Below are positions 8,640 through 60,333 of a stretch of 64,000 nt of DNA, piece after piece. The notes beneath the pieces were generated by a model. That model did no database searches. It was given only the letters and a program-made list of their open reading frames with translations, and was not told the origin of the DNA. Both the position numbers and the translations under genes were made by a program. Each line of letters starts with the position of its first letter. Position 1 is the stretch's first letter. This stretch comes from Ligustrum vulgare (taxonomy: Eukaryota; Streptophyta; Magnoliopsida; Lamiales; Oleaceae), in assembly GCA_963555705.1 (NCBI GenBank), contig OY743171.1:20087352-20151351 (forward strand), written 5' to 3'.

Positions 8640-9020
8640 TATATTAAGGTCACAACACTGTATATTTCAAGTCACAAAAAACAAATATTTTAGGTAAGAA
8701 ATAATTTCATAGTCACAAATTATAAAAATATTAGCCTATTAAGTCACACATTAGACTTATTTTTAAGTCACAATAACAATTTATTTATGTCAAACTATTT
8801 TCAAGGTCAGGATTATAAAATCAAATAGGTCATAAATGTTAAATTAATTGAACCTGAGATAGTTTTAGGTCACAACTAATTAAATTATTAGGTCACAAAT
8901 TTTGTAAGTGATGATTATCAAATTATTATGTTACAATTATTTGATTTTTGAGTCACAACTTATCAATTATTAGGTCACAAATTTTCTTAAGTCATATTTA
9001 AAAATTATTAGGTCACGGCA
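8640..9020 (-). repeat. inverted counterpart of the TTTGTGACC array
   Basis: Repeated GGTCACAA, TTAGGTCACAAATT and AGTCACAA motifs, the reverse complement of the motif at 6995-8370. The roughly 270-bp spacer between the arrays includes two direct copies of TTTTGTTACCCTCCCTAC. Confidence 0.6.
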
Positions 9021-9893: not shown

Positions 9894-11154
9894 AGCAGAG
9901 TCAACTGGTAGTTTCGACAGACGAGAGCGAAGCCTTGATCGTGGGAAATCACCGGTGCGGCTGAAGACTTTTTTCATCGGGATGCAGTTTCACCGGAACA
10001 TCGAAATTCGATCTAGGCCAAACGATGACCGTGGTAGGTTTTCTTCTAAGATTTTTTTTTTATTAAGTTTTGTTATTGATTTATGATTATGATTTTTCAG
10101 ATTTTGCTAGAAGATGCTCGGTGGGGAAAGAAGGTATCGGTGCTTCGAAAGGGTATAGTTTCAAATTTTAGATGTAAATCAGTTGGTAATTTTTGGCATT
10201 AAATGTACATAAAGCTCCTATTTTTTGTTAGATGATTTTATGTTCATCTTTTATGCTAATACCTTGACTGAGTAACTAAGTGTTGCAATGGCTGAGCAAG
10301 AGGAAGATGGTGAGGAAAATGCTCGAGTAAGCAAGAAAGTAAGACCTACTCCTTTAGCTAAGCTGTATGGTTGTGAAATTCTGCTTGTGGTCTTCTATTT
10401 CTTTCCTGGACGTCATCATCACTTACCTTTATCCACCATTAATCTTCATTTATTCAAAATCCTTCTGGCTATTGTACGAATATATTGATGCTTTGGAGTT
10501 ATTGCGGCACTTCTTTGTAGAGTGAATTTGATAGTAGAGTATCAACTTACTTGAAAAATGAATTGGTTAGGATACACAATAAAGAGAAAACTTGGGGAAT
10601 CTGATCCACTCCTATAGAATGTAAGATTTGTGTGCTGGTTTTGATTTGTAAATAGCATGTGACTGATTCATTTACTTGGTTTTTATTGAAGTTCAAAGTT
10701 TTTGAAGATTATTGTGATTGGACATTTTAAATCAATTTTTCCATTTTTTCCCAACTTTTAGGTTCACTACTAGAGCATTGAATGCAAAGCACTTTCCTGC
10801 TGTGCAGAATTTGTTCCTCCCTATTGCAATTTTCTTAACTATAGTAAAATGGACCAATTCTCATTACTAGACATGCATCCTCTGCCAAGTAATATTAGTA
10901 GTACAAGATGTTGATAAAATGGTATGTTCTATTTTAGTGTTACTATTATCATTTTCATTCTTGAAATGTTTTTATTTGTCATTTCATTTTTAATTTCCTC
11001 TTAATATTTTCAATAAAAACAAGTAATTCAACGACCCTTAGTACTTTTAAGTCAAAGTTTCCAATTTTTTCATCCATTTATTTTCCTTTTTACTTTCATT
11101 CTGTATTAGGCATTACTGGTTCCTTTTTATCTAATGTTATTGAGTTTGTGACAG

Positions 11155-11212
11155 GCTGGGTATTGTTGAGGGTCTAATGACAACTGTTCATTTCAGTACC
11201 GGAGCTACCAAG
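11155..11212 (+). pseudogene. GAPDH fragment captured in the Helitron
   Basis: After a GTGACAG acceptor the frame reads LGIVEGLMTTVHFSTGATK and ends at a GTATTG donor. This matches glyceraldehyde-3-phosphate dehydrogenase: the GIVEGLMTTVH stretch is near-invariant in the catalytic domain, and STGAxK is a second conserved block some tens of residues further on in the intact enzyme. Here the two are fused, so the intervening codons are lost. Only 58 bases remain. Flanking sequence is intron-like. This is a relic with no enzymatic potential, and its presence beside unrelated gene pieces points to capture by the Helitron. Confidence 0.75.
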
Positions 11213-11673
11213 GTATTGTGACTTGCAATTTGTGGAATAAAATTGTCCCTCCAATTTCTGTATTAATATGGTAGTCATTTATTCACATAGAACAAAGACT
11301 TGCTTTCAAATGGAGTAGTGATTCCATTCATCTTTTGAACTAATTTCCTGTGTCATTCATAGCAAATTTTGAAATCTATGATACACCTCATTAAAGCATC
11401 ATTATAGGCACATGGTACACAATAATTTACATTCGTTTTTTCATATAGTTGCTCATTCTTTGAGTTGGATTCTTATTTGTGGTTGCCAGGGCATAGTGAT
11501 TATATTCCAATGTGGGTTGGTTTCAACTACCCACCCTTTTGGCATAGTGACTATATTCCAATGATATTCTAATACAAATATATCTTCATGTTTTTATAAT
11601 TATAGAAATAGTCAAATGAATATTTGACTGAAAATTTGTGCAATTTTGTTTGAGATCAATGTTTGGTTTGTAG

Positions 11674-11989
11674 GTGTTTCAGTTTGCTGATATGTACTAA
11701 TGTCCATAGAACAATGGCCTGAAGCACTATGTTTGCCTTGACTGTTGTGATTTTTCTGGATATCAGGTGAAAATTTGTCCATCACTAATTATTTTCAACA
11801 TTTGTAGCTGTACTAATGACCTTAAAAAATTGAACTTTCATTTGCCTAGACTTAGTATAAAACTTGTGTATTGATGATCATTTAAGGATGAGCTGTTGTG
11901 GGGTGCTACTTGGTTGCACAAGGCCACCAAGAATATAAGGTACCTTAATTACATTCAAGCAAATGGAGAGACCCTTGGTGCTGATGAAG
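11674..11989 (+). pseudogene. GH9 endo-1,4-beta-glucanase, two-exon fragment
   Basis: Two exon-like blocks, 11674-11766 and 11887-11989, flank a 120-bp intron with GT...AG ends. The first reads VFQFADMY, then two stops (TAA, TAG), then a segment ending DFSGYQ. The second reads [16 protein letters not shown] and continues through [16 protein letters not shown]. Glycosyl hydrolase family 9 endoglucanases share the FADKY, CSYSGYQ and DELLWGAAWL-ATK motifs in this order. The stops and the lost Cys/Tyr context show decay. The retained intron indicates capture of genomic DNA, not a processed transcript. Confidence 0.82.
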
Positions 11990-12177
11990 GTCACTTTTTG
12001 AAATAAGTTTGCCCTTTTTCAAGTCTCTTTTTGTGATAATTCAAGTTAATTACATTTGTGTTGCAATTTGAGGCATTTCAAGTTAATTAAATTGCACTAA
12101 TCTATTTAATATATAAAGGTAGGAAAGTTGGAAATGAGTTTCTTAAAGACTCTCGCTCAAGAAAAGGGGGGAAAGAG

Positions 12178-12540
12178 ATCTTGCTTTGTTTATGATTTTG
12201 AATTTTTAGCGCTACCAAATTGTGCAAGTGAAAATATCACTTTTTGCTGATCTTTGACTATTCAGGAAAAAGTAAGATCTTGCTTTGTTTATCACTTTGA
12301 ATTGCTCAGTGCTACCAGATTATGCAAGTGAAAAGATCACTTTTTGCTTATCTTTGACTATTCAAGCAAAATGCTTAGTATTTCAAGTAATATCTTGCTT
12401 TGTTTATGACTTTGAATTGCTCAGTGCTACTAGATTATTATGCAAGTGAAAAGATCACTTTTTGTTGATCTTTTCACTATTCAGGAAAAATGCTTAGTAT
12501 TTAAGGTAAGATCTTGCTTTGTTTATGACTTTGAATTCCC
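12178..12540 (+). repeat. tandem repeat, about 3.3 copies of 99-119 bp
   Basis: Units starting ATCTTGCTTTGTTTAT begin at 12178, 12277, 12392 and 12511. Each carries CAAGTGAAAAGATCACTTTTTG and related sequence. The middle units are about 90 percent alike by eye. The array lies between the GH9 and polyamine oxidase fragments. Confidence 0.85.
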
Positions 12541-12861
12541 TTCAACATCATTAGCTGAGCTAATTGAATTCCTTATCCTTTTCAGGCACACACCATTCCT
12601 GTCCATGTAGAATATGTAGAAGGTATCCAATTGACAAACATGGATAATATATTCATTAAATTTATTGTAAAGTTGTGTTTGATTCATATTTATTTGTATA
12701 GAAAATGTCAAATCATAGAAAACATTTTCCACCTTTTATATATGTTTGTGTTTGATATGTATCTTAAATTGATTTTGCTGAGCCTTCTTCTAATGACGAG
12801 TTCTCTTGATAGGTTTAGTGGTAATTTAATTTACCCTAATTGTGTGATAGTGATAACAAAA

Positions 12862-13131
12862 ATGGTGTCCAAAAAGCCCAGGATTGTGATAATTGGTGCA
12901 GGAGTTGCTAGCTTAACTGTTGCTAACAAGCTCTATATAGCTACAACCTCGAAAGAACATTTCGAGTTTTTGGTTGTAGCGGGTGGAACAAGAATTGGTG
13001 GCAGAATTAACACTTATGTATTTTGTGGTGACAGGATCGAGCTAGGTGCTACTTGGATCCACGGAATTGGGGGTAGCCTAATTCACAAAATTGCTCAAGA
13101 AATCAATTCATTAGAGTCTGAACAGTCGTGA
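12862..13131 (+). pseudogene. polyamine oxidase (PAO5-like) N-terminal fragment
   Basis: From an ATG at 12862 the frame reads about 89 residues that match the N-terminus of plant PAO5-type flavin amine oxidases: a beta strand with IVIIGAG, then ANKLY, a GGTRIGGRI block and GATWIHGIGGS. These motifs make up the FAD-binding Rossmann start and the RIGGR pyrophosphate-contact motif. The third Rossmann glycine region reads GAGVAS in place of GAGMAG. The frame stops after SLESEQS, where the intact enzyme (about 530 residues) would continue, and nothing homologous follows. The frame is open upstream to 12631, but that part is not PAO-like. It is a captured or truncated fragment without the substrate-binding domain. 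Confidence 0.85.
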
Positions 13132-15307
13132 AAATGTATGTATGGGATTTTGGAGGATCCTTTCACTATATTTTATTTGTTAATACATTACTATATATTA
13201 GTATATATAAATATGCATTACTATTAGTATTTAGTTCGTTGTTTGAGTTTTTTTATTACGCCTAAAGAGAGAATCATTATTCAGATTTTTACTTGAATGT
13301 TGATTCAAGTTGATTATTGAATCGTTTTACTTGGAAAAGCTTGAAAATTTTTAATTCAAACTTATCTATCGGGTTCTATCGCTCTTTGCTTATAATTATT
13401 CTACTATAAATTTTTGATAAGGATGGGCGAAGGTACAAATTTCTGATAAGGATAGGCATCCAATAAGTTCCACTGTAAATGTTTTTAAAAGATGGGAAAC
13501 TTGAATGCTTTGAGGTTTAAAAATGCTTTGATTTTAGTGAGAATTAAGGCTTTTTAGTTAATTTTGCACTCTCTCTGTTTTGGTGTGGTTGATGTTGTGC
13601 TTTTTGCATTGTGTAAAATGGTGTAATAAGTGGTAAGATAGATGTAATTGAAAATATTTATGCCAACGAATGTTATGCTTGACCTTATCTGATATGTGAT
13701 TGTTCCACTGTCAGAATTTGTTTTTCTGATTTGAATTATTTCCTGATGTTTGATTTGGACATTCAACTGTATTTTCATGTTAGATTCACAAGCTTCTGTG
13801 GTTTCTGTGAAGACTGGATGAAAATAATAATAGAGAGAGAATTTTGGAGTTCTAAGAAACTATATTTTAGTCTATGGTGAAAGTATTCATAATTCTTAAT
13901 GATGATCTTCTATTCAAGGTTACTTCTATTTTTTGGGGTAAAGAAGTTAATAATCATGGAAAATATGATCATTCTTTTCCCGAATATTTATTTTATCGGT
14001 ATTTTAGTTTCGGGGTCCTTTGAATTAGTTTTCTTGATCTAAAAAAGAGGAGAAATTTTGTGGGTTTTTAATGGTGATTGATTGGCTATGGTGGAGGTTA
14101 CAAAGCATTGCATTCTAAGGTACAAATATTCATTTTTTTAACACTCATAATTGATTATTTAGATTATCTGATGAGATGGTTGGTTTGTTGATGTATGATG
14201 ATGACGACGACAACGAAAGCTTCCTTTTTAAAGTAGTTTAGCATATATGTCTCTATTTGATGTTAATTTTATACTTATTAATATTTTTATTTAATTAGGT
14301 ATTTTTTTTTTGTTTGTTGTTCTTATTTTAATATTATTATGTCCCTGTTTGATATTCATTAAAACCTCATTATAATAAGTTTTTACAATTTGGTATAGTA
14401 ACTTGATGTTAGACAATTGCTTGAAGGGTCATCGTCTGTGTCAACAATGAGAGAGAGAGAGCAGTTGAAACACGTGTAGGATGTATAACCCTCCATCCAC
14501 AGTCAAATAATCCACGTGGTGACAATTTGGAAAAAAACACTAGCTACAATGGTTCTTTTGTAGGCCAACTGTAATGTTTTTCAAAATAATGTCATGCATG
14601 CATGGGACCCACAACTTAATATGACATGACAAAAAAATTCATTAAAATGATTTTTAATGTAAACCAAACAGATGCTATGAATTATTTATCCTATTTGTTA
14701 TTAAGTGATTAATGTTTTTAAATGAAAATTGGAAAAAAAGAAGTTAAAATGCTACGTGTAATTATCAATATTAAAATTATGTTTTTGTTACTAAAATTAA
14801 AATCAATTATTATCCTCTATATTATAAATTATATTTTTCTGAAATGTATTTTAATATTATTAAATATTTTTAACAAATTTACTCTTCGTTCGACGATTAT
14901 ATTTTTCTCAATAAGCAAAATATTAATTTTGTGAAAAAATATATATTCCAGAAAGAGTTAAAATAAATATATTCTATATAAAATGTGTTACGTTACAAAT
15001 GAAAAAAAAAAAAATTGGATTAATATATTTTAAAAATAAATAAATAAAAACATTGAAGATTTACTTCCTTAAAAAAAAAAAATGAGTGTGTTCAACATGC
15101 ATATTATGAGAATCATTAATTTGTTGGTGTCAACTTTTTGTTATCAACACATAAGTTAAATAAAACTTAATCATTTTTTTTTATTTTGACGAAAAAATTA
15201 AATATATATAATATTAATATATTTATAAAAAGGATGAAAAAAAAATTAAATAATGTATAAATTGAAGTTTGAATGAAATGTAACTAATACATTAAAAAAA
15301 TAACTTA

Positions 15308-15474
15308 GCCTCTGTTTGTTAAAATTTTTTTGTTTAAAAACATGTTTTTTTTATGTAATCTAGGTAAAATGTGTGGTTGAAAAATGGAGAGAGAAAATAT
15401 ATATGGTTAAAAAGTAAATTGGGGAATTGTGAAGGAAAAAAACATGTTTAAAAGCATGTTTGCCAAGCATAACC
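15308..15474. mobile_element. Tourist-like MITE, 167 bp, inside the Helitron
   Basis: Flanked by TTA on both sides (15305-15307 and 15475-15477), as for PIF/Harbinger MITEs. Ends GCCTCTGTTTGTT and CTTGGCAAACATGC-type (on the opposite strand) are imperfect inverted repeats. Internal sequence (GTGGTTGAAAAATGGAGAG) resembles MITE copies at 37.8 and 39.6 kb. Confidence 0.55.
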
Positions 15475-15765
15475 TTAATTGAAATTCAAAATATATTGAA
15501 AGGAAATATCGTGATAAGATCGACAAATTTTCAAGGAAAACGTAAATAAAAGTCGAAATAAATTTAATACAAAATTTTAATTAATTGTCAAATTTCAAGA
15601 CGCGTGGAACACTGGGGTATTGTTTCTTTTTCTATTTTGATTAATTTTTTTTTTTTAAATTTCAAATTCGATAAAATTTTGTATTTAAATGTTATTTGTA
15701 CTATTTTTTTTAGTATGATAGTATAATCAACATATTTTCATAAATTTTATTTCATGGATATAAAT

Positions 15766-15794
15766 CCCGTGCATCGCACGGGTGATAGAACTAG
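15766..15794 (+). other. Helitron 3' terminus: hairpin plus CTAG
   Basis: 7-bp stem with a 3-base loop, an 8-base gap, then CTAG followed by host T. It defines the right end of the 9477-15794 element. Confidence 0.85.
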
Positions 15795-16496
15795 TTTTTT
15801 AATAATAATAATATTTTAATATTTTATAATTATAAATTGAATTAAGACCTGATTTTAAAGTTACATACGTTTATTCTCATTTATGAATTTGAATATTTAA
15901 AAGTAGGGGTGAGTCTAATTTCCAATATATTTAGGACTAATTAGGCCCACTCTTATATTCTGAATTAAATTTTTTTAGAATTAGATAATGTGATAATATT
16001 TAACAAAATCAGTTATAATCTAGACAACATCTTTTCTCTCTATGGAAACGAGAGATAGACTCATCTATAGTTTCCTTCTTCAGACGGCACCGTCAAAATC
16101 ACAAGTCAGATTTAAAAGAGCTTTTTGAATGCTATTTAAATTGCTTTTTAGCTTCTGCAACTCATAGCTTCAAATACTTCCCGTCATGTATTGAGTCGAA
16201 TACACAAATGGGATTTTGGAATGCGATAAACATTGCATATCAACTTCTGCATCAAATACATCTCGTCATGTGCGGAGTCTAATTCAATTTTTGGTTAAAA
16301 TGTGTTTTTTTTTTTTTATTATTTCTATTTAAGCACTTCAATTTGAATGGGTACAACTAGTTATGGATAACTGGTTTTGCTTTATTGTTTACTTCTTAAT
16401 ATGCATAAACGTTTATTGCTTTGTAACATTTATAAAGTTTCTGTATATAAACCTTGGGAATTTTGAGCGTATGATTGACTTTGAAATCACATTAAT
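15795..16496. other. no gene seen
   Basis: AT-rich intergenic sequence with no recognised coding frame or terminal repeats. Confidence 0.4.
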
Positions 16497-17400
16497 TTAA
16501 TTAATTACAAACTACACAAATGCTTACGAATACATTAGTGACAATTGTAATTTAATTATAAAATTAAAATAAAGTTATAATAGTATTGCAAACTCTAATT
16601 GATTACATGATGTAATTAAGTTGCAATTGCAATTCAAATTCAGATGAATGTAATTAATTTAATTAATTTTTTTTAAAAAAATGTCATGTTTTACAACTTC
16701 ATTAGTTACAATTGAAATAAAGTTACAATTGTAATTAATTACAAAATATAATTCATTACAATTTGTAACTAATTTAATTAGTTTTAAAAGAGAAATGAAA
16801 TTTCAAGTGACTTGTAATATATAATTAAGTTACATTTGTAATTGATTACAAAATTGAAATTAAATTACAATTGTAATTAATTACAAAATTGAAAGAAAGT
16901 TACAATTGTAATTTATTGTAAAATGGAATTAAGTTGCAATTGTAATTAAGATACAATTGTAAATAATTATAACTTGTAACCAATTCAATTAATTTCGAGT
17001 GAATTGTAATATACAATTAAGTTACATTTGTAATTGGTTACAAAATTGAAATTAAATTATAGCTGTAATTAATTACAAAATTGAATGAAAGTTACAATTG
17101 TAATTTATTGTAAAATGAAATTAAGTTACAATTGTAATTAAGATACAGTTGTAAATAATTATAACTTATAACCAATTCAATTAATTTCGAGTGAATTATA
17201 ATATATAATTAAGTTACAATTGTAATTAATTATAATTTATAAATTTAATTAATTTTAAAAGAAAAATGAAATTTTGAGTTACTTGTAATGTACAATTAAA
17301 TTACAATTAAGTTGTAATTGTATTAATTATAATTTCTAACTAATTCAATTAATTTCAACAATTAAACCTTTCATTTTATTACAAATTATCATTAGTTACA
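16497..17400. repeat. AT-rich array of TTACAATTGTAA-type palindromes
   Basis: Many copies of GTTACAATTGTAATTAATTACAAAATTGAA and variants. A larger tandem order of about 187-195 bp is visible: the phrase GTGAATTGTAATATACAATTAAG recurs near 16806, 17001 and 17188. No coding potential. Confidence 0.75.
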
Positions 17401-17473
17401 CTTTGGACACACACCATTTATTTTCAATCGAAGTTGTTGGAATCTTATCACCCATCACTTTTCATGAATTTTG

Positions 17474-17870
17474 CAGTGTTCTAAAAAGCGTGAAGCGTGA
17501 CGAAGCGTGGAGCTCAAGAGTCAAGTTTTTGAAGCTTAAGCGGGAGTAAGCGTTTTTCAATTCCTAAATATTTAATTTAAATTTTACACATACTTGAACA
17601 AGTAAAAAAAAAAAAAAAGGAAAAAAAAAAAAAAAAAAAAAGCCAGCTGCGCGCATCGGGCACGCTTAAGCGCGCACAATGCGCGCTTAAGCTCGCTTCA
17701 GCACGCGTTGTGCGCGCTTAAGCGCGCTTATGCGCGCACTGTGCGCGCTTCGCGCGCGCTTTTCAGAACAAAAATTTTCAAAACGCGTTTTTCTCGCTTT
17801 TCGCCAAAGCGACGCGCGAGAGGCGCGCGTCGCGCGTATGCGCGCACAGTGCGCGCGTTTTAGAACACTG
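17474..17870. mobile_element. non-autonomous hAT-like element, 397 bp, with 8-bp TSD
   Basis: Terminal inverted repeats CAGTGTTCTAAAAAGCG (left) and CGCGCGTTTTAGAACACTG (right), flanked by a perfect 8-bp duplication GAATTTTG at 17466-17473 and 17871-17878. Most of the interior from 17641 is GCGCGC / AAGCGCGC low complexity, extremely CpG-rich for this AT-rich neighbourhood; a poly-A run precedes it. Frames open in it are not genes. Confidence 0.95.
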
Positions 17871-17878
17871 GAATTTTG

Positions 17879-18289
17879 TGTGCAACTTCATGCAGTTCAG
17901 CGAGATAAAGCTTTGGATAGATAACTTCACAACCTAATTGAACTATTTGTAGCAAAGAAGGTTAGAATTTTTTATTTTATCTAAATTTCAATTATGTAAT
18001 AAACTTTTAATTTTGGAAATTCCTGTAATATTGAGCGCAATTTATATTCTTTAAAGTGAAATATGGTGGAAAATTAAACCAGTATACTACTTTTTCATTT
18101 TTCTTCCCTGCATTTCAGGCTCAAGTGGAAGGTAGTGTTAGTGAAATTCATCTGAAAGAGGTTGAATCTGAAAGATTAATTGGGCTGTGGAAAATAAACG
18201 AAACGGGCAACGCAAATCTGAATACTGCAAGGAGTAGGTTTAGAAAAGAATTGAAACTAGCAACACAAGCGACTATGTGCTCAGTATGA
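17879..18289 (+). pseudogene. two exon-like blocks of an unidentified gene
   Basis: A block ending at 17960 (frame with LHAVQRDKALDR, a TAA, then LHNLIELFVAKK) is joined by a 158-bp GT-AG intron to a block at 18119-18289 (AQVEGSVSEIHLKEVESERLIGLWKI..., ending ATMCSV and a stop). Composition and splice signals suggest real former exons, but I do not recognise the family. The first block has a stop in frame and is interrupted just upstream by the 17474-17870 hAT insertion, so it is probably a gene relic. It lies 1 kb upstream of, and in the same direction as, the eL32 gene. Confidence 0.35.
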
Positions 18290-18447
18290 TTTTCAATCAC
18301 CTGATTTTTAAAATATATTTTATATTTTTGAAATAACTTTTAAAATACCTGATATTTTAAAATATGCCGTTAAAGTTTTAATATTTGGATAATTAACCTG
18401 TGGGTTAATTATCCCTTAATGCTAAAATCCAATAGCAATTTTCCTAT

Positions 18448-18600
18448 TGGGCCTTGTGGATCAATGAGAGAGGGCTTATCTTAGCGGTTTTATGCCTGAC
18501 CCAGTAAGTAGCGTAATCCAATCCAATCCAGTCTGCAGTAATTTATAGTACCGAACCCTAAATCCAAGCCCCGTCAGGTATAAAACGTGAACCCTAGCCG
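18448..18600 (+). promoter_or_regulatory. eL32 promoter: site II-like and telo-box motifs
   Basis: TGGGCC at 18448-18453 matches the site II element (TGGGCY), and AACCCTA occurs at 18554-18560 and again at 18590-18596, matching the telo-box. In plants this pair is characteristic of ribosomal protein promoters (established knowledge). The placement 80-230 bp ahead of the 5' UTR exon end fits. Confidence 0.6.
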
Positions 18601-19275
18601 AATCTCCATTTTCTCTCCATCGTACTTCCGCCACCACACAGTGACACAGAAGGAGCTCCTCTCGGCTTTGCAACAAGGTTCGATCTCTCACTCTTTCCCA
18701 CTCACCCATAAATACATAAATACGTATATGTGTGTTAAATTTTGTCAATTTGTACACAGTTTCGGACTGTGTTCATATATTGGTTCGTTTGTTTCTGTTA
18801 AGGTAATATGAGATTCAATGCGAATTGATTGGTAGAATTGTTTTGTGGTTCCATTTTCTATACGGTGTTTATGTTCAGCTTTGTAAGAAATCAAATTTGT
18901 GTCTTTTCCACTGAATCATGTTCATAAATATTATCTTATAAATGCACGAAATGATAATCATATTTCTTATATGCTGTGCTTGAGCAACTTACGGACCGGA
19001 CAATGTAGGAAAGGTTTTATGTGTTTCTAATGTGATTTTCGATTTGTTTCTCCCAAATTTATTTTTCCAAGGAAAATATGTGCTTCAGTTGATGGTTAGG
19101 ATATTTTTGTTTAGTATATGTTTCATATCAATTTACTGAAATGTTGCGATGCTAGTGTACTCTATTTTTGTTATGTCCTAAGTATTCAGTCTTCTACCAT
19201 TCATGTTATAATGAAGTTAATTTTGTTTTAGAAACCTATGATGTTCCTGTTATAGTGAAGATAATTTTGTTGTAG
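18601..19275 (+). other. eL32 5' UTR exon and leader intron
   Basis: A pyrimidine-rich leader exon ends at 18677 (CAACAAG followed by GTTCGA); the intron 18678-19275 ends TTGTTGTAG, seven bases before the ATG. Leader introns are common in plant ribosomal protein genes. The transcription start is not defined by the sequence. Confidence 0.5.
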
Positions 19276-19282
19276 AAACGAG

Positions 19283-20241
<959 letters not shown>

Positions 20242-41940: not shown

Positions 41941-42017
41941 TTTTGACGTCGTCTGTGGGAAACCATACTGCTAATCACGAAAATACATGATGAAAAGCCA
42001 CGTATAGAAAGGAAGTC

Positions 42018-42440
42018 TTGAAAAAGGTGTAAAACTTTGAAATATAAGTTTAGTACCCTTGAAAAAGGCGTAAAACTTTGAAATATAAATTTAGTACCCT
42101 TGAAAAAAGCGTAAAACTTTGAAATACAAGTTTATTAACCTTGAAAAATGCTTCAAACTTTGAAATACAAGTTTGCTCACCTTGAAAAAGGCTTAAAACT
42201 TTGAAATACAAGTTTGCTCACCTTGAAAAAGGCTTAAAACTTTGAAACCCAATTTTATTAACCTTGAAAAAGGCTTAAAACTTTGAAATACAAGTTTGCT
42301 CACCTTTAAAAAGGCTTAAAACTTTGAAATACAAGTTTGCTCACCTTGAAAAAGCCTTAAAACTTTGAAACCCAAGTTTGTTCACCTTGAAAAAGGCGTA
42401 TAACTTTGAAATATAAGTTTAACAACCTTGAAAAATGCTC
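42018..42440 (+). repeat. ten tandem copies of an exact 41-bp unit
   Basis: Units TTGAAAAAGGCTTAAAACTTTGAAATACAAGTTTGCTCACC and variants start at 42018 and repeat every 41 bp to 42427, followed by a partial unit. All full copies keep the 41-bp length despite substitutions. It lies in the leader between the primer-binding site and gag. Confidence 0.95.
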
Positions 42441-51652: not shown

Positions 51653-51657
51653 CCCAC

Positions 51658-53147
51658 TAATAAGTGTATAAATATGTCTAAATTAGGTGTAATTATTGTC
51701 GTTTTGGAATATTTGCTATTTAATTTGTGTTTATTTGTTTACTTTACAGAAAATATCCCAAAAGATGAAGAATGAAGTAATTGATGAGAAAAATGCATAA
51801 TTGGATGTTGATTGAAGCTAAATTGGATAATTGATAAGTTCGTAACGTCAACCGGAAAGATGCAATGTGCCAAAATGAACGAAACAGAGGTTGGAGAACC
51901 TAATTGAATGAATTAAGAGCTTAAATGGGAAAATTGAGAAGAAGATAAAGTTTGGGGACTAAATTGCAATAATTGGAAGTTGAGGACTGAATGTGAAATT
52001 AAAAGTCAAGGACTAACTTGTACAGCCGAGAAAAGAGCGAAGTCGCGATCGCTGATCACATACCAAGCGATCGCAAGAAGGTGTGAAAAAATAACCCGAG
52101 AGTTTTTAGGTCAAGCACGCGATCGCTAGGGTGTAAACCACAAAATCGCGTGGCTTTTCGGCTGGGTCGCAGATCAGATTTTTCTCGCAATTTTTAACAG
52201 GCTTTGGGCTTTTTGACCTAGGTTTTCTCCAAAACCTATATATACAACACATGAGGCACGAAAATCAAACCTTTGCCTCTCCATAGAACGAGCCACAACA
52301 GATTTTTTAATTCAAAATTTTGGAGATTCAAGCAGCGCAGAGGGGCGTGAATTGAAGATACTTGAAGAATTGATAATTGGTGCAATCTTTCGATTCTTTT
52401 TTTTATTTTCAATGAACGTCATTATATTTTGTTTTTGCTATTTAAATATGATGTGTAGCTAAATTTGATGTTGGGATGAACGATGTAGCCTAGTTAATTA
52501 TTTTAATTCCATATTCCTTGTTTTAACGCTTTAATGCATGTGTTGATTTATTATTGCGTTTAATGCTTGAATGAACTGGCCACTTATTCATGATTTTATG
52601 TGTTATTTCCATAATCCGAGAGGTGAGTTAATAACATAGATCTAGGTAATGAATCCGGTAATTGAACGAGAGATATAGATATACTCTTGTAATTATTGCG
52701 GTCGTGTGTGAATTCTAGAATGTAATGCATCTAGATAAGGAATATTCGGACCCGCTGTAGAGATACATGGTTGACTTATTTAGGTAGAGTTGATTTAAAC
52801 TCGAGAGAGGAATTTCAATTTAAATTAGTGAATTCGACCGAATGCATATTTAGGAAATAAAACTGGAATTGGAGTTAATTTAATTGGTTAGGTGAAATCG
52901 TAAATCCCAACTACTTTACAATCGTATTTGAAAACAAAACAATTCTCCCATTTTAATTTCTTTAGTTTAATTCTTTAGTTTTAGTTTAAAACCTCAAATT
53001 TGTTTGTTCGTTCAAATAAAGTGTAGAACTAAAATATTTTGGTAATTAATAGCAGTCCTCGTGGGACGATAATTCGGACTCCTAGGTCCACTTTATTACT
53101 TCTCACGACCCGTGCACTTGCTTCGCATCGCGAGATATCATTGAACA
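51658..53147 (+). repeat. 5' LTR of the Athila-like element
   Basis: 1490 bp. It lacks about 10-20 bases near its start that the 3' LTR has. It contains three intact GCGATCGC octamers (52045, 52067, 52119) and one degenerate copy near 52142, and CTATATATACAACAC as a TATA-like region. Confidence 0.93.
52045..52150. repeat. GCGATCGC palindrome cluster, 5' LTR
   Basis: Octamers start at 52045, 52067 and 52119; a decayed fourth (AAAATCGC) is at about 52142. Distances are 22, 52 and about 23 bp. Confidence 0.95.
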
Positions 53148-53285
53148 AGTTTTTGGAACCGTTGCCGGGGATTGTTTTTATATTAATATCGATACCCATT
53201 AGTTCTTATTTTACTTTGAACTTTATTTTGCTTATTTTTATCTTTATTTTCAGTTTTTGTTTTTAATTAGTGTTTTATTTATTTT

Positions 53286-54593
53286 ATGTTAAGAAAGACT
53301 AAGTTATTTGATTTGCTTCCTTTTGATACAGAAATTGAACGCACCTTTCGACAGAGGCGTAGACAACAGTTGGAAGCGAATCAACAAACAGACTTAGCCA
53401 TTGCAGATGACATAATTCAGGATAATCATGGAAATCAACAAAATCTGCCAGCAGCTGTGAATGGACAGCAACAAAATCATAGAAGGCACGTTTTGCGAGA
53501 CTACATGGTTCCTCCTATGGGGAACATTGGAACCTGCATTGTACCTCCTGCAATCCGAGCTAATAATTTTGAGATCAAGACTTCCTTGATATCCTTGATC
53601 CAAAATTCGTGCGTTTTTCATGGATTGCCATCTGAAGATCCTCATGCGCACCTTAGGACATTTTTGTAACTATGTGATATGCAACGCATGAATGGAGTTT
53701 TAGAGGATGCCGTGAAATTAAAGCTATTCTCATTCTCTTTGGCGGACAAAGCAAATGCCTGGTTTTACTCTTTGCCCTTACACACAATCACCACTTTTGA
53801 AGTTATGAGCCAGAAATTTGTAGATAAATTTTTCCCACCTGGCCGCATGTCAAAGCTAAGACGTGAAATTCTGTCCTTTAGTCAACAGCCAGGGGAATCC
53901 ATTTTTGAAGCTTGGGAAAGGTTCAATGAGCTTATCAGACAGTGTCCTACCCATGGAATCGCAGATTGGATCTTAGTCCAAACATTCTACAATGGGTTGA
54001 CGAATGAGAATAAAAAGTACGCTGACTCAGCAGCTGGAGGATCATTAATGAATATGACATATGAAGAAGCTTCTGAGATTTTTGAGAAGATGGTTGCGAA
54101 CAGTTACTAGTGGTACTCAGATAGATCTACACCAAAGTCTGGAGGAATTGTTGCAGTTAATGAGATTACAGCATTAAATACTAAGCTGGATGCTTTAACG
54201 AAGAAAATCGACAGTATGGGTGTGCAGCCAGTAAATTCAGTTCATACAACTTTGTGTGATTTTTGTTTCGAAAATCACGCGATAAATTTCTGCCCACTTC
54301 AACAAAATCAATCAAACCCAGAACAGGTCAACTTCGTAGGAAACAGGCAGCAGGGTTGTACTTATTCACAAACTTACAACCTAGAATGGAAGAATCACCC
54401 TAATTTTTCATGGTCTAACAATCAGAATGTTCAGCAGCCGCCTGGATTTCAGCAACAGCAACAATCTCAGAAAAACATATCCGAGAATATAGAAGTGTTA
54501 ATTCAGCTGGTCAAGAGTCAGAATGGTGAGATAATGAATCAAGCTGCTGAAATAAAAAAATTTGAAGAAACAGATGGGGGAGTTGGCAGCTAG
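53286..54593 (+). pseudogene. Athila-like gag
   Basis: One frame runs from 53286 with stops at 53667-53669 and 54108-54110 and continues to about 54593. Athila gag features include the opening MLRKTKLF, a Gln/Asn-rich linker, the RDYMVPP motif and FHGLPSEDPHAHLRTFL. These are followed by KLFSFSLADKANAWFYSLP, FVDKFFPPGRMSKLRREILSF, then PGESIFEAWERFNELIRQCP, and a CDFCFENHAINFCP knuckle-like motif near 54260. The two stops and a later frame shift near 54580 make it non-functional as it stands. Confidence 0.9.
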
Positions 54594-55496
54594 CAGTGCA
54601 ATAAGGCAGCCTGGACAGTTACCAAGCAACACTGAAATGAACCCTCGTGAGCATGTTAATACAATAACAACAAGAAGCGGGGTTCAGCTATCTGAAGTGA
54701 CTGTAGAGGAATATGGGAAGCAGAAGAACCAAAAGAAAGATGTGGTGGAAGAACAGGAAAGTGAGGAAGAACAGAGGTCAACTCCTGAAGTTCATGAAAA
54801 AGTTGAAGAAGAAACCCGAGTTCGACCACCAGTCAAAGCTTATGTGCCCCCAGTTCCTTATCTACAAAGATTGATAAAGCATCAGTTGGAGCACCAGTTT
54901 GGAAAATTTTTGGAAATATTCAAGAAACTGCACATTAATATTCCTTTTGCTGAAGCATTGGCTCAAATGCCGCTCTACTTGAAATTCATGAAGAAGATGC
55001 TGTCAAATAAAAGGAGATTGGTTGATAATGAAATAGTAGCACTGAGTGAGGAGTGCAGCGTCATACTTCAAAAGAAATTACCACAAAATTGACCGATCCA
55101 GGGAGTTTCTCTATCCCTTGCATTATTGGTAATTTCAGTTTTGATAATGTTTTGTGTGATCTAGGGGCCAGTGTTAATTTAATGCATTTGTCTGTGTACA
55201 GGAAACTTGGTTTGGGGGAGCGTAAACCAACCAATATCACACTAAAGCTGGCGAACAGATCAATACAATATCCATATGGGATTGTTGAGAATGTGATAGT
55301 AAAAGTAGACAAATTTTTCTTCCCAGTCGACTTTGTGATTTTGGACATGGAAGAGGATGCCCAAATGCCCCTCATTCTTGGAAGGCCGTTCCTAGCTACT
55401 GGAAGATTCTTAATCGACATTGAAAAGGGAGAAATCATCTTTATGGTCGAGAAGGAACAAGTCACGTTCAGCATCAAGCCAAGGCGAAGATCTTGA
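54562..55496 (+). pseudogene. Athila-like gag C-terminus and aspartic protease
   Basis: After the shift near 54580, the frame 54562-55092 carries the NTITTRSGVQL motif that opens Athila pro-pol, a Glu-rich linker and YVPPVPYLQRL. A further shift near 55060 leads to 55053-55496 with the protease: IPCIIGNFSFDNVLCDLGASVNLM (active site Asp-Leu-Gly-Ala-Ser in this lineage), then MPLILGRPFLATG. The catalytic Asp is retained. There is no RT downstream. Confidence 0.88.
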
Positions 55497-55779
55497 AGGT
55501 CTAAATGAAAGCTGCTTCAAAGTGGAGGGGGTGGTCCAGAAACCAGAAGAAAAGACCGAGCAGGGTATTAATATTGAGGAGGAGCTAAGCACAAAACATG
55601 AGTTCATAAAGGCTAAAGATGGATGGAGGGACAAGAAGGAAGAAAAGCCTAACATCCCTCAACAATTGGCTAAAACTGAGGCTTTGGGATTCAAGAAAGT
55701 GAGAAAACGAATAGAGATATGCAAGGCAGGGAATTGCAAGAAATGCAAAGCTTCAAGAGGATCATTCAAACCTCCATGA
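55420..55779 (+). pseudogene. short charged ORF after protease, Athila-like
   Basis: A frame of 119 residues, Glu/Lys-rich, overlapping the end of protease in another frame and ending KCKASRGSFKPP. It probably represents the join between the protease tail and the sequence that followed integrase, after deletion of the rest of pol. It is immediately followed by the CGCTTGTTGGGAGGCAACCC motif that occurs after pol in Athila-type elements. Confidence 0.4.
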
Positions 55780-56194
55780 TATTTATGTGCTAAAGTCGGG
55801 CTTAAGACTTAAAACGGAGCGCTTGTTGGGAGGCAACCCAACCTTTCTTCCCTTTTACTTATTACGCTTTTATTATTTATTTTAGTGTCGAAATTTTAGA
55901 TATATGCATGGTAGGAAATATGTTTGAGTGTTTTGTATGTTTCATGTTAAGAGCACTTGTGCATAATAGTCTATTATTGCATATTTAAGTATGTTTTTGA
56001 TTTTGCATGTTTACATTAGGCTAGGTTTTTATCGTCATTCCAAACACACACACACACACACTAGTTTGGATCATGAAGTTAATGTTAAAAAAAAAAAAAA
56101 AAAAATCATTGCATAGATCGTGAAGTGATTATGGGGATAAAAATGATTTTGAAAATCAAAAATAGGAAAAAATTTCATTACTGCCGGGAACTAC

Positions 56195-56301
56195 GCGATC
56201 GCGTGCCAAGAGGATCTAGCGATCGCGAGTTTGCATTTAAAAATCAACAGGTTTTAAAACCTTGAACCATGCGATCGCTGGCACTCCAGCCAGGCGATCG
56301 C
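56195..56301. repeat. GCGATCGC palindrome cluster, internal
   Basis: Octamers start at 56195, 56219, 56271 and 56294; distances 24, 52 and 23 bp. Confidence 0.95.
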
Positions 56302-57908
56302 GTGGCTGTACTGGGACCAAATTCGGCAGTTTAAGTTCTTTTCCTCATTCTTTCAACTGTAAACATTATAAACTCGTTTTATCTCCCCAAAATCACTCAA
56401 AAGTATGATCTTTCATCTATCATGCATGCAATCAACACTTCATTGCACCAAATTCATTGCTATTTTCAAATCCAAATCAATGAAAGGTATGAAATTCTTC
56501 ATTTAAATCCATAGTTACTCAAAATTTTGAAATTTTCTTTTAGTTCTTGGATTTTGAAATTGTGAATGGTGAAGAGTGGGCTTAGGTTAGTGGTTGGAGA
56601 TTGTGATTTGTGGTTTAGTAGACAAAAATTTTGGGTTCATTCATCCCTCCAGCCCTATGCATATCCATTGATTTTTGCAATGTCCATTAAGTGTTTGATG
56701 AAATGCTACAAAGAGAGTTTTGTGCTAATTTTATAAATCCATCCGAGCATTTATCTTCATGACATGTGTATCAATATTTATGTGTGTGTAGTGCATGAGT
56801 TAGTTCACATCTTGGCATTAAAATCATTAAAACCATGTTGGCATCATGACAGCCCCATTGCAAGGCCATTGCAGACCATTGCACCCAGAAACTGTCTCAC
56901 GTCACCTACTTCTCCACATTGTTGCATGACCATATTGACCTTCAAATGAGATGAATTTTAAAATATTGTTGATCATGCTGTGAACTTTAAAGTATCAAAA
57001 GATGGCTCGGGAAAATTTATGTTTTTCTAGGCGATGTCAAGGCTTAAATGTGTGTGGTCGACCAATTTTGAAAATTCAAAATTTTGCTTTGACTTTAGTT
57101 TGGGGGTGTGGTACTGAACTTCCATTATTTCTTATTGGAGTTTATGATTTCTAATGTTACTTATCTCTTAATTGCAAGGTAAACACCAATCAAGACACAT
57201 CCAATCAAGTTGGGCAGGGCAAGAATAGGGTCATATTTATTCAACATCATTTCAAATGGAAGCATCAAGGCAACAAAGCATTCACATTTCACCTGGGAAG
57301 TTCTCATTCTCTCTTCGTTGTCTTGTATTACATTTTTTTTAGATCTTTTTGACAAACATTGAGGACAATGTTCATTTCAAGTTTGGGGGTGAAGATTCAT
57401 TACATTCTTCATTCATTTTATATTCATTCCATTTTATTGGGATAAAAAAAAAAGGTTTTAAAATGTGTTAACTTGTTTATTACCTAGGATATAGTATGAA
57501 TCAATTTGTACTTAGGCTTGAAAATTGGACAACATGAAAGCATGAACTTATGTTGAACTAGTTATGTTTTGCTAGATTCATATTTATTGCGCACATAGCC
57601 CGTGTTGGATAATTGCTTGTGTAAGGAATTTTGTTTAATACATGTGGGGCAAATTTATGCAATTTGAACTTAGGAATGACTCGAAAATCCCTGAACTTAG
57701 ATCATAAGATATCCCATCCCTAAATTAGAATCAATCATGCTAAAAGGCAAGTTTGGGGGTAAAATGGTTGGAATTTGTGTGTATTGACGGGTTGGAGGTC
57801 TGTGGTTCTTGGTTTTTCACTTTAATCATTACAGTTTGGTCAACGGGTATAAACTATTTTCAGCATAAAAACAGAAAAATGTTGAAGGTCTTATTCTGCT
57901 CTTCAAAT

Positions 57909-58188
57909 GCCTTTTTGATTCGAGTAAGTAAGTCCGAGGGGTCTTTCAAACCTGGTGCCCTAAAGTCAATTGGCTTGGGAGTCATCGACCTAAAGCTCGC
58001 TACAGGGGTCAATTAGAAAGCAAGTACGGAGAGTGGACTTACACATAAGACATTATAATATCTTTAACTTTTCTGTTTAAGCCTTTATGACTCGGGCAAG
58101 TACGTCTGAGGGGTTCTTTGAACCTGGTACCCTAAAGCCAACTGGTTTGGGAGTTGCCGATCTGAAAGCCCGCTACAGGGGTCATATA
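57909..58188 (+). repeat. direct duplication, period 172 bp
   Basis: The phrase GCCTTTNTGAYTCGRG and about 100 following bases (GGGGT, TTNAACCTGGT, CCCTAAAG, CGCTACAGGGGTCA) occur at 57909 and again at 58081. Confidence 0.8.
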
Positions 58189-58820
58189 GAAAGCCAGTAT
58201 GAAAAGTTCTGCACAAAGATGGTAAAAGACAGAGACATTAAAAGAAAAAGTCGTCCATTAAAAAAAATAATAATAAAAATATATATTGCATGGTATAAAC
58301 TTTGTTGACTGAGCTGTGGTGGTTGAGGTTGTAGAATTGGGGACTGCTTTCTTTTGATTTGTTTTGTACGTATATTTCTGATTCTGACTACCTTGTGTGG
58401 AAAAAGCAAAGAATAATTTTAGAACCCACATAGATAAAAACCAGGGATGTGAGAGAAAAGCAGAAAGTGGTGATCATCCATGAGCGCTGAAAGGAATTTC
58501 ATTAGAATTCATAGATTGACCACATGGGATTCGGGCTGGATTATGTATAATGAGCCACACAGTGTTGAGTATATCTTTTGCATAAGTATGCTTTTGACAC
58601 TGACTATTCACACACACACTTGAAACTCTGGAAGGATATAACTAGAAAATATTTTGCATTGTTGTTCATGACGCTTGCTGAAGCTTAAATTGGTTTGGAC
58701 TGTAGAGGCATATGGTAAACATGTTGACACAACAAAAATATTTGTTCTCTTATTTCTTTGATTTTAGTAGTTTAGTTTAAATTGTTCGAGGACGAACAAT
58801 AGTTCTAGTTTGGGGGTATT

Positions 58821-60328
58821 TGATAAGTGTATTTTATACACTTATTTGTATGTCTAAATTAGGTGTAATTATTGTCTTTTGGAATATTTGCTATTTAATT
58901 TGTGTTTATTTGTTTACTTTACAGAAAATATCCCAAAAGATGAAGAATGAAGTAATTGATGAGAAAAATGCATAATTGGATGTTGATTGGAGCTAAATTG
59001 GATAATTGATAAGTTCGTGACGTCAACCAGAAAGATGCAATGTGCCAAAATGAACGAATCAGAGGTTGGAGGATCTAATTGAATGAATTAAGAGCTTAAA
59101 TGGGCAAATCGAGAAGAAGATAAAGTTTGGGGGACTAAATTGTAATAATTGGAAGTTGAGGACTGAAAGTGCAATTAAAAGTCAGGGACTAACTTGTACA
59201 GCCGAGAAAAGAGGGAAGTCGCGATCGCTGGTTACATACCAAGCGATCGCGAGAAGGTGTGAAAAAATAACCCGAGAGTTTTTGGGTCAAGCACGCGATC
59301 GCTAGGGTGTAAACCAGGCGATCGCGTGGCTTTTCGGCTGGGCCGCAGATCAGATTTCTCTCGCGATTTTTAACAGGCTTTGGGCTTTTTGACCTAGGTT
59401 TTCTCCAAAACCTATATATACAACACATGAGGCACGAAAATCAAACATTTGCCTCTCCATAGAACGAGCCACAACAGATTTTTTAATTCAAATTCTTGGA
59501 GATTCAAGCAGCGCAGAGGGGCGTGAATTGGAGATACTTGAAGAATTGATAATTGGTGCAATCTTTCCATTCTTCTTTGTTATTTTCAATAAACGTCATT
59601 ATATTTTATTTTTGCTATTTAAATATGATGTGTAGCTATTTGATGTTGGGATGAACGATGTAGCCTAGTTAATTATTTTAATTCCATATTCCTTGTTTTA
59701 ACGCTTTAATGCATGTGTTGATTTATTATTGCGTTTAATGCGTGAATGAACTGGCCACTTATTCATGATTTTATGTGTTATTTCCATAATCCGAGAGGTG
59801 AGTTAATAACATAGATCTAGGTAATGAATCCGGTAATTGAACGAGAGATAGAGATATACTCTTGTAATTATTGCGGTCGTGTGTGAATTCTAGAATGTAA
59901 TGCATCTAAATAAGGAATATTCGGACCCGCTGTAGAGATACATGGTTGACTTATTTAGGTAGAGTTGATTTAAACTCGAGAGATGAATTTCAATCTAAAT
60001 TAGTGAATTCGATCGAATGCATATTTAGGAAATAAAACTGGAATTGGAGTTAATTTAATTGGTTAGGTGAAATCGTAAATCCCAACTACTTTACAATCGT
60101 ATTTGAAAACAAAACAATTCTCCCATTTTAATTTCTTTAGTTTAATTCTTTAGATTTAGTTTAAAACCTCAAATTTGTTTTTTCGTTCAAAAAAAGTGTA
60201 GAACTAAAATATTTTGATAATTAATAGCAGTTCTCTTGAGACGATAATCTGGACTCCTAAGTCCACTTTATTACTTTTAATGACCCGTATACTTGCGAGG
60301 TATTTCGCATCGCGAGATATAGTGAACA
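58821..60328 (+). repeat. 3' LTR of the Athila-like element
   Basis: 1508 bp, begins TGATAAGTGTATTTTATACACTT; preceded by AGTTTGGGGGTATT. Confidence 0.95.
59221..59325. repeat. GCGATCGC palindrome cluster, 3' LTR
   Basis: Octamers start at 59221, 59243, 59295 and 59318; distances 22, 52 and 23 bp. All four are intact. Confidence 0.97.
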
Positions 60329-60333
60329 CCCAC

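Follow-up and report, generated by a model that had tools for sequence, protein, structure and literature searches.

Paired palindromic octamers form a conserved four-site module in gypsy-type and copia long terminal repeats of a plant genome

Why should a retrotransposon carry the same palindromic octamer in three clusters that share one layout, two of them in its long terminal repeats (LTRs) and one in its interior? The question is raised by a 64-kb stretch of the Ligustrum vulgare genome (64,000 nucleotides of contig OY743171.1, positions 20,087,352 to 20,151,351 of the forward strand; hereafter the window), which contains an LTR retrotransposon with clustered copies of the octamer GCGATCGC. 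An original prediction, made from the letters of the window, had described the clusters and proposed selection on their spacing, for example for a dimeric DNA-binding protein, a chromatin signal or an RNA fold; the observation itself is confirmed here, and the interpretation overall is partly supported. From the sequence comparisons reported below, we consider it probable that the clusters represent one cis-regulatory, promoter-upstream module of four dyad sites, most likely for a putative dimeric DNA-binding protein.

Results

The window contains exactly 11 copies of GCGATCGC (in 100 shuffles the mean was 0.08 and the largest count 1), which, together with a decayed twelfth copy (AAAATCGC, 52142-52149), form three clusters of four, here called tetrads (Table 1), as the original prediction had stated. 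Start-to-start spacings are 22/52/23 bp in the 5' LTR (decayed copy counted), 24/52/23 bp in the interior and 22/52/23 bp in the 3' LTR. The interior tetrad, 3.0 kb ahead of that of the 3' LTR, keeps the layout amid different sequence, again as described before: over 125 bp it aligns at 66% with the LTR cluster, the long match runs lying in and beside the octamers, and outside these the two differ nearly everywhere. At the decayed copy, the LTRs of the element disagree over four consecutive bases (52141-52144 in the 5' LTR), for which one event is likelier than four point changes.

Table 1 Features of the retrotransposon and its octamer tetrads (window coordinates), and loci with octamer-free LTRs
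Feature	Position or loci	Strand	Basis or detail
LTR retrotransposon, gypsy-type gag and aspartic protease only	51658..60328	+	LTR match, CCCAC flanks, Pfam PF03732 and PF13650
5' LTR	51658..53147	+	LTR match; ends from sequence reading
Tetrad in 5' LTR	52045..52149	.	Octamers 52045, 52067, 52119; decayed one 52142
TATA box CTATATAT of 5' LTR	52236..52243	+	87 bp after tetrad
gag piece (Retrotrans_gag), interrupted frame	53670..54107	+	Frame list, Pfam
Aspartic protease piece	55050..55493	+	Frames, protein search, Pfam
Interior tetrad	56195..56301	.	Octamers 56195, 56219, 56271, 56294
3' LTR	58821..60328	+	LTR match; ends from sequence reading
Tetrad in 3' LTR	59221..59325	.	Octamers 59221, 59243, 59295, 59318
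TATA box CTATATAT of 3' LTR	59412..59419	+	87 bp after tetrad
Octamer-free LTR rows, same R/U5	L073-L077, L080, L083, L084, L086, L088-L091, L097, L100, L101, L106, L107, L109		

Across the host genome (1,384,917,791 bp in 51 contigs, the window included, and the one plant genome searched), GCGATCGC occurs 37,876 times, versus 877 for the reversed word. Pairs of the form GCGATCGC-N{0,30}-GCGATCGC were found at 8,863 places, 8,790 of them N{12,18}, and pairs N{30,60} apart numbered 4,180, with 0 for the reversed pattern in all three pair searches (N{0,30}, N{12,18} and N{30,60}); chance as the origin of the octamers and pairs is ruled out by these reversed-word controls and by the window shuffles. 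Among the matches listed, counted by hand over the initial portion of contig C1, 49 of 50 N{0,30} places on the + strand lay at 22-24 bp start to start (one at 31), and 46 of 50 N{30,60} places at 51-53 bp (the remainder at 46, 47, 47 and 66). As a rough estimate, octamer survival near 0.5 would put the number of tetrads in the genome at the order of 10,000-20,000, assuming independent octamer survival, which actually varies with age. A general palindrome effect was also rejected: when 256 palindromic octamers were compared over 263,901 bases (a set chosen for loci holding the pair), GCGATCGC had 46 pairs at 20-26 bp, and more were found just for ATATATAT (110) and TATATATA (102), with ACGGCCGT (4) next.

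The tetrad is present in both gypsy-type and copia LTRs. The loci read (L030-L033, twenty 10-kb loci, L034-L053, around listed pairs, and L070-L072) all lie on contig C1 and were picked for octamer pairs, such that family frequencies are not inferable from them. Family A comprises window-like elements with the tetrad in LTRs and interior (LTR identity 81-87%, interior piece 82-87%); for its member L041 the common part is only that downstream of the cluster (79% over 704 bp). Family B is represented by L037, a Ty1/copia element in which copia gag, integrase and reverse transcriptase lie between ~645-bp tetrad-bearing repeats, and by a second copy, L032, where one intact and one decayed pair are followed by a copia gag of 94% identity. 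The copia assignment of L037 is made because of its protein order and flanking repeats; these repeats have no clear TG start, and one copy is seemingly split by about 2 kb. Family C (L040, L051, L053, L070 and part of L046) has an LTR of about 775 bp that is 77% like L037 over 0.6 kb (L070 contains no 120-amino-acid frame), while L030/L042, L045, L047 and L072 make up family D, and L044 and L046 family E. The module is not a feature of every LTR element, as three other LTR-like repeat pairs of the window are without CGATCG (22317/26765, 28337/33270 and 41257/48936), the first two enclosing copia reverse transcriptase matches.

In 17 LTR copies found via octamer pairs, mismatch amounted to 5.5% in the octamers, 36.7% in the pair spacers (without gaps), 25% in the middle spacer, 15% in upstream U3 and 13% in R/U5. 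Because intact pairs had led to these copies, the test was repeated with copies chosen by R/U5 (query 59440-59760; 2,757 first-look candidates, 40 scored, two of them the window's own and 38 others fetched). Tetrads are present in 21 of these 40 rows, with mismatches of 5.8% in the octamers, 27.1% in spacer 1, 45.5% in spacer 2, 29.5% in the middle spacer and 13.0% in upstream U3; the 3.5% in R/U5 is low because R/U5 served for choosing the copies. Greater conservation of the octamers than of flanking LTR bases, a proposed check on the original prediction, is thus borne out by the alignment. Spacing in the same 21 rows was 22/52/23 in 16, 22/53/23 in four and 22/54/23 in one, so that octamers and pair spacing do not, as a rule, drift freely in other copies. 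Single departures occur: in the interior tetrad of L039 (4014-4128; 31/52/24), two intact octamers lie 31 bp apart.

Many tetrads have decayed members. The 19 R/U5-chosen rows outside the window retain 60 of their 76 octamers intact, and CpG transitions (C-to-T or G-to-A) account for 11 of the 17 octamer changes, as expected for decay after insertion; CpGs are kept modestly more often in octamers (0.923) than at 24 other sites (0.859). Between the two LTRs of single elements (five pairs), spacers differ at 3 of 145 sites, about the level outside (0-3.5%), and the spacers are therefore not mutation hot spots. Separate copies can differ far more, with L034 and L050 diverging by 6.9% outside and by 55% in the spacers, and the LTRs are mosaics. 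In the course of element replication, these comparisons suggest, the octamers are preserved and the spacers change freely or are exchanged. Mosaic LTRs would also be expected if the tetrad were an ancient inherited relic, now functionless, that has been duplicated and reshuffled from element to element, and so would a difference in pair spacing between families of just 2 bp, a likeness of the interior middle spacer to family C (given below, with uncorrected P values) and, indels being rare, a spacing constancy that could be mostly inherited. A relic would, however, drift evenly, its CpGs faster, whereas in the same copies the octamers differ by 5-6% and the DNA between them by 27-45%; we regard this origin as very improbable.

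The 45 distinct pair spacers are 14, 15 or 16 bases long (11, 23 and 11, respectively), and the length of the middle spacer is less strict. Relative to minimal changes in the R/U5 sample, indel events numbered 0/48 in pair spacers, 3/59 in the middle, 6/138 upstream, 2/53 downstream and 4/73 in R/U5. The argument for a fixed length comes from the genome-wide spacing spectrum, which covers families whose spacers are dissimilar. The helical phasing proposed originally suits the 52-53 bp distance (about 5 turns); the 22-24 bp distance corresponds to 2.1-2.3 turns and varies by family.

The LTR tetrads of the window lie in U3, because they end 87 bp before a TATA box. We extended this comparison to 23 tetrad rows (22 from LTRs plus the window interior), covering 260 bp downstream in the sense direction, with the sense strand of family C inferred from its match to L037. 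A TATA-type match follows the tetrad in 18 of the 22 LTR rows, at 66-123 bp (84-123 bp in 17 of these), and its distance is characteristic of the group: 87-88 bp in five of six LTR rows of family A (66 in L042), 84-85 in family E, 106-110 in family C, 110-118 in copia and 122-123 in L072. Single matches mean little, because seven rows have a TATA-type match on the upstream side too; the argument is the constancy within groups.

Collapsing 169 octamer contexts to 64 revealed a flank preference of five bases on each side, ACCAC-GCGATCGC-GTGGT, with relative entropies, moving outward, of 0.77, 0.15, 1.17, 0.65 and 0.20 bits, then 0.04-0.09 or less; on either side, site information is near zero from six bases out. 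This symmetric site suits a putative dimeric DNA-binding protein, which, of the possibilities named in the original prediction, appears to fit best (dyad site, held word and place upstream of the TATA box).

The interior tetrad aligns between the window and six other copies over 585-845 bp (75-89%), with mismatches of 2.8% in the octamers (one partly deleted, in L043), 15% in the spacers and 13% in the middle, versus 8-45%, with many gaps, in other 30-bp stretches. Recent copying of the LTR cluster into the interior, an outcome that the original prediction had itself named as refuting, was rejected on the grounds of the weak alignment described above, the presence of the interior cluster at the matching place in the six other copies and its differing middles.

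Of the 40 R/U5-matched rows, the remaining 19 lack a tetrad, and 18 of these have one common octamer-free sequence at the module's place. No GC-bearing eight-base palindrome is repeated within any of the 18 replaced rows, a TATA-type match stands at the same place in the six replaced rows printed, and homology upstream of the replaced part was found in three of three rows tested (74-81%). LTRs lacking the module have therefore amplified as well, and the module behaves like an interchangeable part. A separate R/U5 match, L078, has unrelated upstream DNA, with similarity beginning near the expected transcription start; this is perhaps an insertion copied from RNA.

Exchange may also reach across families. 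The middle spacers of the window LTR and the window interior are barely similar (0.39, P 0.05); the interior middle is more like that of L040 in family C (0.53-0.55, P 0.001 or less), in an orientation that is antisense for C, and the interior middle of L036 is like that of the window LTR (0.58). Because these values come from 91 pairs compared in two orientations with uncorrected P values, exchange between superfamilies and orientation independence are leads, not proof. A tentative scenario, which we consider rather doubtful, is that of a portable, orientation-independent promoter cassette passed between gypsy and copia elements, with its four sites and pair spacing locked by one putative host protein and with unusually fast spacer turnover. 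Under such a scheme, copies whose spacers match existing small RNAs would perhaps be silenced, and each amplification wave would bring new spacers.

The window element is flanked on either side by CCCAC, a target-site duplication (51653-51657 and 60329-60333), and its LTRs are 95.5% identical. It encodes gag and aspartic protease in interrupted frames, the gag being of gypsy type (PF03732), and neither reverse transcriptase nor integrase was found within 51658-60328 in the frames or with Pfam; on eight frames (six from the window), Pfam found gag and protease only, no search aimed at VANC having been made. The element is presumably Athila-like, as the original prediction labelled it; no reverse transcriptase by which to place it in the Athila clade was found in it. 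Among Athila-lineage features, LTRs and a gypsy-type gag are present, and an env-like frame before the 3' LTR is absent in the window copy (none above 90 amino acids between 56310 and 58820, the window copy alone being considered). The protease query matched 2,222 proteins, those named among the 120 matches listed being all from plants, and a translated LTR frame used as query had no protein match. Scanning the viral_contigs set with three patterns returned 29, 6 and 10 stretches, and sequence comparison of the 29 yielded 0 matches to four gag/protease pieces and weak matches only (E 0.05 or more) to the LTR and interior.

Other repeats were noted in passing. Four TTTGGGGGT polypurine-like tracts lie ahead of the 3' LTR (57099, 57382, 57752 and 58809); multiple polypurine tracts are a Sirevirus feature according to passages of PMC2829016, and here they occur in a gypsy-type element. 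A direct repeat of ~120 bp, its copies 172 bp apart, occupies 57909-58199 in the noncoding DNA toward the 3' end of the element, and a tandem repeat with a step of ~41 bp lies at 42017-42439. In L037, at about 8640-8710 on the minus strand and upstream of the tetrad, repeated ACCGGTCC / CCGGACC words recall the Sirevirus CGG-CCG core. L042, with an integrase near a tetrad LTR, was considered as an autonomous gypsy partner of the window element; no link is claimed, as it has no TTTGGGGG-type tract beside its tetrad LTR and its DNA is without match to the window 3' region.

Discussion

The regulatory module that we favour would consist of four dyad-symmetric sites arranged as two pairs (22-24 bp within a pair, 52-53 bp between pairs) and, in LTRs, placed in U3 upstream of the TATA box. 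A putative host protein would bind each palindrome as a dimer and thereby control element transcription, whether by activation, repression or counter-silencing. Selection during element replication would hold the octamers and the pair lengths, and the bases between sites would be free to change, or be exchanged by recombination between copies.

Several observations weigh against this reading. Within 260 bp, no TATA-type match follows the tetrad in 4 of the 22 LTR rows (L045, L047, the D cluster of L042 and L041) or in the interior cluster of the window. Only 5 of the 64 contexts contain the complete extended word CCACGCGATCGCGTGG, and the left and right flanks of one site covary no more than shuffles, with a weak exception at position 2 (P 0.03). 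Module-free LTRs have amplified too. Selection on spacing, as first proposed, gains from pair-spacer lengths that are constant in the 21 R/U5-chosen copies, but spacing varies from 22 to 24 bp by family, shared descent explains part of the fixed layout, and the lack of indels in pair spacers (0/48 vs 12/264) is not significant alone. Finally, complementarity between the outer arms of a pair exceeds that in shuffles (total P 0.006; P 0.001, 0.031 and 0.007 at positions 2, 3 and 6).

This last point bears on an RNA fold, in which the two octamers of a pair would form a hairpin stem in the element RNA (U3 at its 3' end, and the interior), with varying loops and a role in, for example, packaging, dimerisation or export. 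The window clusters do fold better than shuffles (z -7.4, -7.3 and -2.2), inner position 6 also exceeds them (P 0.016), and the interior occurrence fits; yet repeated palindromes fold with one another anyway, and the inner arms do not covary as a whole, being not above shuffles at positions 1-5 or in total (2.16 vs 2.44). The outer excess, for its part, is in our own reading partly one contrast (7 T-A cases of 37 at position 2, in window-family LTRs) and comes from shuffles that ignore relatedness; by the same reading, a compensating change is present in 1 of 13 pairs with a damaged octamer (R/U5 rows). With sister LTRs having amplified without the module, an RNA structure seems unlikely.

The interior cluster raises a different alternative. 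A promoter role does not cover this cluster, because no TATA-type match follows it; a promoter there was rejected on this ground and on the loss of the ATTATAAA stretch in the six other copies, and no frame above 90 amino acids follows the tetrad in the window. An enhancer or chromatin role would fit the interior tetrad better than a promoter. A chromatin role, if extended to all tetrads, would make them a chromatin or silencing signal, an array whose ligand is a host protein of the silencing, insulator or centromere type and not a promoter transcription factor, in keeping with the interior copy that has no TATA box, with eight CpGs per tetrad and with changes there that are mostly CpG transitions, as in methylated DNA. 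This alternative appears quite improbable, given that in several LTR groups the tetrad usually sits just ahead of the TATA box and that an element would profit little from conserving a silencer.

Whichever way it acts, the tetrad offers a testable cis-code, with one word, four sites and two distances in thousands of places in one genome, and natural controls are on hand in octamer-free sister LTRs and decayed copies. The regulatory module could point the way to a host protein that several superfamilies of retrotransposons rely on, and its held sites stand apart from fast-changing surroundings, as expected where elements and silencing compete.

Heat shock factor sites are arrays of nGAAn, and the conserved word GCGATCGC, on direct reading, contains neither GAA nor TTC. 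Heat-responsive elements of the ONSEN type in Brassicaceae COPIA LTRs, gained repeatedly by different families, resemble the tetrad as short host-factor sites in LTRs and differ from it in their heat shock factor word, and a fixed layout of two pairs is not reported in the passages of PMC5059998 considered here. VANC target motifs of VANDAL transposons are likewise sequence-specific sites in noncoding transposon parts, within repeats that diverge rapidly between relatives (passages of PMC5735166 and PMC10398659); VANC, however, is encoded by the DNA transposon itself, whereas here the word is held while spacers diverge. The Short Interrupted Repeat Cassettes (SIRC) of Arabidopsis are direct repeats of 10-29 bp, of various words, interrupted by diverse DNA and linked to miniature inverted-repeat transposable elements (MITEs), with no common spacing reported in the passages of PMC10342631 at hand, in contrast to the present held core of 8 bp with merely preferred flanks. 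HIP1 of cyanobacteria is GCGATCGC itself, highly iterated in bacterial genomes (in passages of PMC4390886), and we infer that the shared octamer is a coincidence. In the open-access literature, no paper tying GCGATCGC to retrotransposons was found, and the transposable-element matches were, by title, none on LTR modules.

The nearest likeness is to the repeated motif (RM) boxes of Sirevirus Ty1/copia elements. In passages of PMC2829016 these boxes are palindromes that contain CpG and cluster in the LTR ahead of the TATA box; further copies lie internally, and a putative regulatory function is proposed for them. The window element shares with them palindromic CpG words, an LTR cluster upstream of the TATA box and extra interior copies. 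Sirevirus words have a CGG-CCG core (Tnd-1 being an exception) and number 8-32 per element in the same passages, whereas here the word is GCGATCGC, each module has four copies in a set arrangement, and both gypsy-type and copia LTRs carry it; moreover, the extra Sirevirus boxes precede an env gene, whereas the largest frame following the interior cluster of the window has 90 amino acids. By analogy, the module would work like the Sirevirus RM boxes, yet in an element that, by its gypsy-type gag (PF03732), is not a Sirevirus.

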